From: Spirosoma pollinicola | GTDB taxonomy: Bacteria > Bacteroidota > Bacteroidia > Cytophagales > Spirosomataceae | Direction: 5' to 3' | DNA: 64,000 nucleotides | NCBI RefSeq assembly: GCF_002831565.1 | Contig: NZ_CP025096.1 | Span: 372,001 to 436,000, forward strand | Shown here: piece by piece, positions 10,465 to 47,984 of the stretch | How the letters are laid out: the number at the start of each line of letters is the position of its first letter | Numbering within the stretch: the first letter of the stretch is position 1 | The notes under the pieces: model-generated | What the model saw: the letters and a program-made list of their open reading frames with translations, nothing else | Databases searched by the model: none | Told to the model about the DNA's origin: nothing | Translations under genes and position numbers: made by a program

Positions 10465-10515
10465 GTGGAGTGAGTGTAGTACCGACCGGGACGGTCGGTA
10501 CTACACTCACTCCAC
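10465..10515. repeat. REP-like perfect hairpin between convergent genes
   Basis: Perfect 24-bp arms at 10465-10488 and 10492-10515 around a 3-nt loop. The core GTAGTACCGACCG/CGGTCGGTACTAC matches the palindrome family at 1869 and 46294. It sits between the 3' ends of the convergent permease and DoxX genes and could act as a bidirectional terminator, although it has no T run. Confidence 0.85.
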
Positions 10516-46293: not shown

Positions 46294-46360
46294 GTAGCAC
46301 CGACCGTCCCGGTCGGCCGTTTAATCGTATATATCAGCCGACCGGGACGGTCGGTGCTAC
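46294..46360. repeat. REP-like doublet filling the gapN-ABC intergenic gap
   Basis: Perfect 23-bp arms at 46294-46316 and 46338-46360; each arm holds its own dyad ACCGACCGTCCCGGTCGG. On the minus strand it begins 1 nt after the gapN stop and ends on the base before the ABC ATPase ATG. Same family as 1869-1943 and 10465-10515. Confidence 0.9.
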
Positions 46361-46361
46361 G

Positions 46362-47984
46362 TTAAAAAATGAAATTCGTACTCAGGAATGTTGATTTATG
46401 ATGGCCCACAATGTCATTCAGAATGGCTTTGTTGGCATCAGACTCTTTGGTTGCCACTGCCGACCGGATCGAGAATGAACGAAGTGCGTCTTCGACCGAA
46501 AGCGTGCCTTCGGCAGAATCCTTGCGGCCTGTAAATGGAAACGTATCGGGGCCGCGCTGGCACTGTGCATTAATATTAACACGACTAACCAGGTTTACCA
46601 GTGGGTCGATGAGCTGGGCTATTTTGGCCGAATCTGTACCGAAAATACTTGCCTGCATGCCATGATCGTCGGTAATCAGGTATTCGATAAATTCTTCGAC
46701 ATCATCGTAAACAACTACCGGAATAACCGGCCCAAACTGTTCCTCACGATAGAGTCTCATGCCTTCTTTGACCGGAGACACCACCGCCGGATAAAACAGC
46801 GATGCTACCGTAGCGCCCCCATTTTCGTTAACAATAGACGCGCCCCCCGCTTCGGCATCGGCAATGATATCGGACAGGTATTGCGTCTTGGTGAGTTCAG
46901 GCAGCGGTGTAATCTGCACACCGCTATCCCAGGGCATACCGGGTTTCAGCTTGCTGACTTCGGGGCCAAACCGTTTCAGAAATTCATCAGCAATGGATCG
47001 GTGCGCCCAAATGATTTTGATAGCGGTGCATCGTTGACCATTAAACGACAGCGTACCCAGCAGACACTCTTTCACAGCCACATCGAGGTCTGCATCGGGC
47101 AGAATAATGGCCGCGTTTTTAGCGTCAAGGCTCATGATTGAGCGTAGCCGGTTGAGCTTTGGGTGTTGCCGTTGCAGTTCGTCGGCTACGCGGCTGGAGC
47201 CAATGAGCGTCAGCACATTTACCTTACCCGATTGCATAACCGGTGGAATTACATTGGCACCCCGTCCATACAGTGAGTTAACAACGCCCTTCGGAAAACT
47301 GGTGCGGAAGGCTTCAAGCAGTGGATAGTGCAGCAGAGAGCCATGTTTAGGGGTTTTAAACAAAATGGTATTACCCATTAAAATGGCCGGAATAAGCGTT
47401 GTGTAGGTTTCGTTAAGCGGATAATTAAACGGGCCCATCGCCAGCACAACACCCAGTGGCGACCGACGAATTTGCCCGATAATACCTTCATCAATCCGAA
47501 ACCTTGACGAGTTCCGATCCATTGTTTTAAGGGTATCAATGGTATCGTAGATGTAGGTTACCGTTCGGTCGAACTCCTTTGTCGCATCGGCCAGATTTTT
47601 CCCGATCTCCCACATAATCAGGTTCACAACCAGCTTTTTCTGTTCCAGCATCTTCCCAACGAAGGTATCCATGCACTTTATACGGTCGGCAACGGCCATT
47701 TGCGGCCACTCACCACGACCATTGTCGTAGGCCGCAACAGCAGCCTCTAAAGCTTCCATTGCTTCGGCAGGGCCCGTTACGGGAAAGCTGCCAACCAGTT
47801 TGCGCTGTAGTTTACCGTCTGCATCCGGAAAGCAAACAGGGGAATAAACGTCTGAAACGGCTCCATCCCACTGGCGCATTTCGCCATTGAGCAGGTACTC
47901 GCGCTGGTGAATGGGTTCGATGCGGTAGTCGGCTGGAACCTGGTTCTCTGAGGGAAAAAGCTGTGTAAGTTCTAAGGTAGTCAT
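46362..47984 (-). CDS. Aldehyde dehydrogenase of the GapN type (NADP-dependent GAPDH-like)
   Basis: Protein of 540 aa; start set at 47984 (MTTLELTQLFPSENQVPADY), because the upstream in-frame codons show no similarity to the family. Like GapN, it would oxidise glyceraldehyde 3-phosphate to 3-phosphoglycerate with NADP. Seen: PFNYP with the oxyanion Asn at 187 and the catalytic Cys319 in FNGQRCTAIK. The segment where ALDHs carry ELGGK (catalytic Glu) reads SLDAK at 285-289, so the usual general base is absent at that position. Other family blocks look intact. It is co-directional with the ABC ATPase gene 68 nt downstream. Cytoplasmic. The physiological substrate is inferred. Confidence 0.87.
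   Translation of the reverse strand: MTTLELTQLFPSENQVPADYRIEPIHQREYLLNGEMRQWDGAVSDVYSPVCFPDADGKLQRKLVGSFPVTGPAEAMEALEAAVAAYDNGRGEWPQMAVADRIKCMDTFVGKMLEQKKLVVNLIMWEIGKNLADATKEFDRTVTYIYDTIDTLKTMDRNSSRFRIDEGIIGQIRRSPLGVVLAMGPFNYPLNETYTTLIPAILMGNTILFKTPKHGSLLHYPLLEAFRTSFPKGVVNSLYGRGANVIPPVMQSGKVNVLTLIGSSRVADELQRQHPKLNRLRSIMSLDAKNAAIILPDADLDVAVKECLLGTLSFNGQRCTAIKIIWAHRSIADEFLKRFGPEVSKLKPGMPWDSGVQITPLPELTKTQYLSDIIADAEAGGASIVNENGGATVASLFYPAVVSPVKEGMRLYREEQFGPVIPVVVYDDVEEFIEYLITDDHGMQASIFGTDSAKIAQLIDPLVNLVSRVNINAQCQRGPDTFPFTGRKDSAEGTLSVEDALRSFSIRSAVATKESDANKAILNDIVGHHKSTFLSTNFIF

Follow-up and report, generated by a model that had tools for sequence, protein, structure and literature searches.

A family of GapN-like aldehyde dehydrogenases without the catalytic glutamate carries an invariant acid two residues further on

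How can an aldehyde dehydrogenase (ALDH) release its product when the glutamate that normally activates water is missing? The question is posed by a GapN-like gene in a 64,000-nucleotide stretch of Spirosoma pollinicola DNA (positions 372,001 to 436,000 of contig NZ_CP025096.1; hereafter the window, in whose numbering feature coordinates are given). Papers are cited here by PMC number, in each case from an excerpt of the full text. The minus-strand frame from 47984 to 46362 is open, begins with ATG and comprises 540 codons followed by a stop. A Pfam scan of the protein returned a single domain, Aldedh (PF00171; 293.8 bits against a cut-off of 23), and none of the Gp_dh domains of classical phosphorylating GAPDH at E ≤ 0.001; the closest solved relatives by sequence are GapN structures (3prl, 9dla, 2esd and 1euh). 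Residues 284–290 read M-S-L-D-A-K-N. In HMMER alignments with the GapN chains of 3prl, 9dla and 1euh, and in a MAFFT alignment, the column of the Glu of ELGGK falls on S285 (codon 47132–47130) and that of the first Gly on D287 (codon 47126–47124); the replaced segment, S285-L-D-A-K-N290, lies at 47115..47132 on the minus strand, as do all features below. Translation and alignment to the GapN chains thus confirm the preliminary description of a GapN-like dehydrogenase with SLDAK in place of ELGGK. The catalytic Cys319 within NGQRC (47028..47030), aligned with the GapN Cys in SGQRC, and the oxyanion Asn187 within FNYP (47424..47426) are both present, as had also been described.

A sequencing error or local mutation is ruled out by the presence of SLDAKN in all 15 same-genus loci examined, the window gene counted, and a misalignment concealing a Glu at the usual place by the agreement of pairwise, profile and MAFFT alignments. 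Nor is the loss common to all ALDHs of this genome, since five of the six others found there have ELGG or ETGG. The sixth (L003, G000:C1:3459172-3460419) is the methylmalonate-semialdehyde dehydrogenase of the genome (MMSDH; TIGR01722, 464.1 bits over a cut-off of 448.5). It reads LGGAKN at the ELGGK site and is therefore the second Glu-less ALDH of the genome, of a known CoA-dependent kind.

The loss of the Glu, which had been raised as a possible clade feature, is, together with the acid close by, a feature of a whole family in Bacteroidota and Pseudomonadota, the two phyla to which the named loci belong. The gene was present in 29 of the 39 genomes that represented the genus and its order (E ≤ 1e-60), in 42 of 296 genomes sampled from the window's phylum (E ≤ 1e-50), in 14 of 398 sampled from the phylum to which a Burkholderia genome belongs (E ≤ 1e-80), in 10 of 293 genomes from the order of one genome with a match, and on 20 of 72,556 plasmid records (E ≤ 1e-60). 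The phylum searches covered samples of Bacteroidota and Pseudomonadota, and the three or four top candidates of each genome were scored; among the matches listed, the lowest identities were 51–52% in these searches (E ≤ 1e-50 and 1e-80) and 50% on plasmids (E ≤ 1e-60). Our homologue set of 169 rows, from which rows below 45% identity or 400 residues were left out, contained 147 distinct sequences, most of them from Bacteroidota. None of these has Glu at the catalytic position, which is Gly in 98 and Ser in 49, and all 147 fit the pattern [GS]L[DE][AS]K[ND]. Two residues further on (the +2 position), where three GapN chains have Gly, every homologue is acidic (132 Asp and 15 Glu). The Asp of SLDAK thus occupies an invariant acidic position, which goes beyond the preliminary description. 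The idea that the Glu might simply have shifted nearby holds in so far as an acid is found there throughout, and fails in so far as this acid is usually Asp.

Further residues are invariant in all 147 homologues: Asn187, Arg140 (47565..47567; aligned with the GapN Arg of EVVRT), Arg318 (47031..47033; adjoining the catalytic Cys as in GapN), Arg477 (46554..46556; in QRGPD, compare QRGTD and ERGPD in GapN), Glu415 (46740..46742; in EEQFGP) and Glu192 (47409..47411), a family-specific acid that is never Asp and that is Leu in the three GapN chains. Cys319 and Tyr188 are each kept in 146, the exception in both cases being a divergent Hymenobacter plasmid copy, L136. Arg140, Tyr188, Arg318 and Arg477 are the same letters in the three GapN chains, and they align with GapN residues that we take to be the ligands of the phosphate of glyceraldehyde 3-phosphate (G3P). 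Glu415 is presumably the usual coenzyme-binding Glu of ALDHs. An ALDH Glu with this function is numbered Glu399 in the excerpted text of PMC8160307.

We placed the family in a FastTree tree together with the three GapN chains and the six other ALDHs of the window's genome. It formed one clade (support 0.875) on a long stem of 1.69 substitutions per site, and grouped with GapN (support 1.0) against the six other ALDHs. Along this tree the site of residue 285 underwent at least four changes between Gly and Ser and the +2 site at least two between Asp and Glu, without the charge ever being lost. On this sample, the family-wide pattern and the tree indicate that the family spread only after it had lost the Glu and fixed the +2 acid; no intermediate between the family and GapN was seen in the Bacteroidota and Pseudomonadota samples or in the plasmid records.

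Several individual copies deserve mention in their own right. L136, on a Hymenobacter volaticus plasmid (7001-8605; 50% identity), carries Gly instead of the catalytic Cys and His instead of the Tyr that follows the oxyanion Asn, is the next gene after another aldehyde dehydrogenase and, judging from these residues, is possibly an inactive paralogue. In two genomes of the same genus (G003:C1:4815637-4817243 and G016:C1:1937637-1939246) the gene is split into two matches with their junction at about residue 388–391, close to a G run in the window's sequence, and stop codons interrupt one G016 match; these split copies may be due to sequencing error, recent mutation or slippage. A second copy with 53% identity to the window protein is found in another genome of the genus (G014:C1:3734978-3736591).

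An AlphaFold2 model based on an alignment of 50 family members, the window protein counted, has a mean pLDDT of 89.1, and its best PDB match is GapN 3prl (Z 44.6, rmsd 2.3 over 467 residues, 30% identity). GapN also ranks first with Foldseek, and GapN and other ALDHs head the fold-match lists. In the model, one predicted strand (281–285) ends at the motif and another follows (288–294); residues 478–483 and 489–494 have pLDDT values below 50, so that the loop beside R477 is poorly modelled.

The residue that is missing is no minor part of the active site. In hydrolytic aldehyde dehydrogenases, published accounts assign the role of general base to the Glu of ELGGK (PMC8160307, PMC5121451), and an excerpt on the sulfolactaldehyde dehydrogenase RlGabD sets out the GapN mechanism with Glu in this role and reports that the Glu261Ala variant of RlGabD, a related enzyme, retains 1/63,000 of wild-type activity, a cost of nearly five orders of magnitude (PMC10599462). 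For Streptococcus pyogenes GapN the corresponding text names E250, near C284, and an E250A variant (PMC8886048), and the GapN chain of 2esd, an entry titled as a thioacyl-enzyme intermediate, reads ALGGK rather than ELGGK. Enzymes of this kind are crippled when the Glu is removed, so a family that is active needs some other base in its place; without one, the thioacyl enzyme would be stuck, or waiting for another acceptor.

From the conservation pattern, D/E287 and E192 are the candidate bases. We put D/E287 first because of its position and because its change and the loss of the Glu share one short motif, and regard E192 as less likely. In the archaeal enzyme AlDHPyr1147, as excerpted, OE2 of the catalytic Glu253, which sits 3.12–3.32 Å from the Cys sulfur, is hydrogen-bonded to the main-chain N of the +2 residue, Gly255, and the main chain of residues 254–255 adopts two conformations in one of the holo forms (PMC5121451). 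Because of this bond, a +2 side chain should start beside the normal carboxylate site, and the missing Glu side chain would leave room for the +2 acid near the usual place of the carboxylate. Among the options named in the preliminary description, that another residue takes over is the best supported one, given an acid at +2 in 147/147 sequences.

We infer that the enzyme would convert D-glyceraldehyde 3-phosphate and NAD(P)+ directly to 3-phosphoglycerate (3PG), bypassing classical GAPDH and phosphoglycerate kinase (PGK). As in GapN, Cys319 would attack the aldehyde, Asn187 would stabilise the oxyanion, and transfer of hydride to the coenzyme would leave a thioacyl enzyme; Asp287 (Asp or Glu at +2), in place of the usual Glu (here Ser or Gly), would then activate the water that releases 3PG. 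That the family catalyses this hydrolytic reaction we consider probable; that it does so with D/E287 as the base is a proposal for which we see about equal chances either way. Against D/E287 in this role, the invariance of the +2 acid can have structural reasons. Moreover, Asp is shorter than Glu, and replacement of Glu by Asp at the normal position is poorly tolerated.

The most serious competitor keeps the hydrolytic, GapN-like chemistry and assigns the base to the invariant Glu192, acting from the substrate side, alone or together with D287. Strict retention of Glu, as seen at residue 192 in all 147 homologues, is what a normal base shows. Among the residues that surround the substrate, the excerpt on AlDHPyr1147 names Ile160, which follows Asn155 by five positions (PMC5121451); taking Asn155 as the oxyanion Asn, Ile160 is the equivalent of Glu192, which likewise follows Asn187 by five positions and should therefore lie in the substrate pocket. 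Near a phosphorylated substrate, however, Glu192 may bind the C2 hydroxyl or hold arginines, its reach to the water is an assumption, and the invariance of the +2 acid would need a separate reason. On balance we find this assignment possible and clearly less probable than that of D/E287.

That hydrolysis is the outcome at all is favoured by gene context. On the Pseudomonas aeruginosa plasmid pAFM-PA19-3158 (L130), the gene is part of a glycerol-to-pyruvate cluster arranged as glpK-glpR-glpD-pyk-eno-tpiA-[GapN-like gene]-gpmI; the cluster adjoins a site-specific integrase. Two Cupriavidus plasmids carry it among tpiA, gpmA, eno, pyk and ppc, and a third next to pyk, ppc and eno. The order is edd-eda-gntP-gntK-[GapN-like gene] in Acinetobacter, on a 1.02-Mb record that may be a mislabelled chromosome piece and that has acetate kinase and phosphate acetyltransferase genes a few kb upstream on the other strand; [GapN-like gene]-edd-eda-zwf in Variovorax; pyk-[GapN-like gene] in Paraburkholderia sabiae; and glpK-glpD-mannitol dehydrogenase-[GapN-like gene] on one Microvirga plasmid, two further annotated Microvirga records and one Hymenobacter record having no such pathway neighbours. 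Three loci (L161, L162 and L168) adjoin gntP and gntK, and L160 adjoins gntP, gntK and eda. In Sphingobacterium (L060), the gene follows those for altronate dehydratase, UxaC, a PfkB kinase, KDPG aldolase and an MFS transporter, with a LacI regulator beyond one opposite-strand ORF after it; 20 of the 96 loci counted have ORFs of the UxaC cluster and 21 have ORFs of the aldolase cluster (out of 99 chosen, L113, L118 and L165 being left out).

For the Pseudomonadota loci, the pathway neighbours fall into the Entner-Doudoroff, gluconate, glycerol and lower-glycolysis classes. At least one of 15 tested genes lay nearby in 17 of 31 loci (10 of 13 plasmid-record loci and 7 of the 18 others) against 1 of 20 control windows, which were set at fixed positions in eight gene-carrying genomes with no plasmid record among them; the Fisher values (p 0.0002 overall, p 0.014 for the 18 others) apply to non-independent loci and are uncorrected for relatedness. 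None of the 15 genes was found near the remaining 14 of the 31 loci, and 71 of 106 loci of at least 5 kb had no match to the genes tested; both sets contain closely related species, and in the larger L109 and L171 are the same place, so that at least one is counted double. None of the pathway genes tested was found near the Burkholderia copies or in the majority of Bacteroidota loci.

The genes that are absent also bear on the product. Neither pgk nor gapA had a match in the 31 Pseudomonadota loci or the 106 loci of at least 5 kb; the pgk query does find Burkholderia PGK, and for gapA a positive control accompanied the GAPDH HMM search but not the tblastn query. The PGK and GAPDH Pfam models returned nothing on six of six plasmid records and one match each in two of two control genomes. 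These six records were picked for their pathway clusters. Of the 20 plasmid matches, 14 were examined (4 of the 14 without annotated features in the stretch). Three of the six hold tpiA, gpm, eno and pyk without GAPDH or PGK, which fits an enzyme that forms 3PG in one step; the absence of PGK from a plasmid is suggestive and no proof, because the host chromosome can supply it.

In the window itself no pathway neighbours were seen near the gene, and no operon is evident: the next gene on the same strand encodes an ABC-transporter ATPase. Between the two lies a perfect 24-bp inverted repeat with a 19-bp loop (46294-46360), which looks like a small repeat element or a terminator; its exact 24-bp arm is unique in the genome, and a copy with two mismatches is found at 10481-10504. 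Classical GAPDH and PGK are both encoded elsewhere in this genome, which rules out the GapN-like enzyme as the sole GAPDH of the cell and points to a bypass role: in this species the enzyme would exchange ATP for reduced coenzyme.

Transfer of the acyl group, rather than its hydrolysis, had been suggested as another way out of the missing Glu. A G3P dehydrogenase in the ALDH fold that passes the acyl group to CoA or phosphate is disfavoured by neighbours that make G3P and use 3PG and by the lack of pgk and classical GAPDH on all six chosen plasmid records; we regard it as unlikely overall. Within this possibility, most weight goes to release of the thioacyl group to coenzyme A, giving 3-phosphoglyceroyl-CoA, much as MMSDH does with its own substrate. 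MMSDH L003 likewise lacks the Glu, and the 'AKN' after the motif is common to it and the family, which counts against the hydrolytic reading; in addition, phosphate acetyltransferase and acetate kinase near the Acinetobacter copy could serve an acyl-CoA. The window protein, however, scores 145.0 against the TIGR01722 cut-off of 448.5, MMSDH has Gly and no acid at +2, the annotated pathway clusters examined name neither a thioesterase nor a CoA transferase, and we know of no use for 3-phosphoglyceroyl-CoA, so that we consider CoA acylation improbable.

Still less probable, in our view, is that the same chemistry serves another small phosphorylated or sulfonated aldehyde, such as erythrose 4-phosphate or sulfolactaldehyde. 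RlGabD is reported to prefer sulfolactaldehyde 30-fold over G3P (PMC10599462, excerpt), and GapN has been crystallised with erythrose 4-phosphate, according to the title of entry 8qhn; the neighbours of our family, however, are producers of G3P and users of 3PG. A broader suggestion of the preliminary description, that the activity differs from that of GapN, is disfavoured because R140, Y188, R318 and R477 are kept in 146–147 of the 147 sequences.

Very little speaks for a phosphorylating enzyme in the ALDH fold that passes the thioester to phosphate to give 1,3-bisphosphoglycerate. Absence of the water-activating Glu would suit it, and ProA, of the same superfamily, runs a reaction of the reverse type. 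Phosphorylation would, however, call for PGK, and pgk matches are missing from all 106 loci of at least 5 kb and all six plasmid records, though three of these have tpiA, gpm, eno and pyk. EC 1.2.1.12 has been assigned to the GAPDH of the Acinetobacter cluster, by annotation only, in the text available from PMC9162365. A catalytically dead or regulatory paralogue, for which the Gly at position 319 of L136 could be cited, is just as hard to reconcile with Cys in 146/147, Asn in 147/147, phosphate-site residues in 146–147 of 147 and the operon contexts.

If the neighbouring acid replaces the lost Glu, the hydrolytic reading would represent a variation on a textbook enzyme mechanism, and a natural Glu-less family, often located in central-carbon operons, offers a ready-made test of deacylation catalysis in which D287, E192 and S285 are the key positions. 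Were acyl transfer true instead, it would imply an unknown thioester of central metabolism or a second origin of 1,3-bisphosphoglycerate formation. There is also a practical side, since current annotations conflict. Family proteins are labelled NADP-dependent GAPDH in six of the seven annotated plasmid records first examined, and P. aeruginosa PA2323, a candidate member, carries K00131, against the EC 1.2.1.12 of the Acinetobacter cluster (PMC9162365, excerpt). At this step of gluconate, glycerol and uronate catabolism, the correct label decides whether ATP is formed or reduced coenzyme only, a question that concerns Acinetobacter baumannii, Pseudomonas and Sphingobacterium.

Among known systems, several may include members of this family. 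The P. aeruginosa genes PA2320-PA2323 are listed as encoding a gluconate repressor, gluconokinase, a gluconate symporter and GAPDH (NADP+), K00131 (PMC8274868, excerpt), and a review names PA2323 GapN in the part available (PMC5902321). PA2323 thus lies beside gntR-gntK-gntP, like the family loci beside gntP and gntK, and from this gene context we assume that it belongs to the same family. The cluster of the A. baumannii complex has been described with a 'GapD-like' enzyme (PMC9162365, excerpt), and Rhodococcus TadD (PMC3827869, excerpt) was considered as a possible member. Residue names were looked for in the excerpt of PMC11633051 and none were found there, and our search of the open-licence literature returned no report of the missing Glu or of a biochemical assay of the family. 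MMSDH, the CoA-acylating enzyme, shares with the family the loss of the catalytic Glu and differs from it in having Gly at +2 where the family has an acid, as well as in the distance of the window protein from its profile. GapN, the NADP-dependent non-phosphorylating GAPDH of ALDH family 11 (3prl, 1euh/2esd and 9dla), is closer: the predicted fold is the same, and both have the catalytic Cys, the oxyanion Asn and the R/Y/R/R set aligned with the G3P-phosphate site. GapN has the Glu base, whereas the family lacks it and has Asp or Glu where GapN has Gly at +2, Ala (in one case Ser) for the second Gly of ELGGK, and Glu192 for Leu; compared with the GapN chains, the window protein also has an insertion with H274-P before the motif and longer N and C ends. 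We have not filed the family as GapN because the catalytic Glu of ELGGK occurs in none of its 147 members; on our best reading, it is a sister family to GapN with a GapN-like mode of action.
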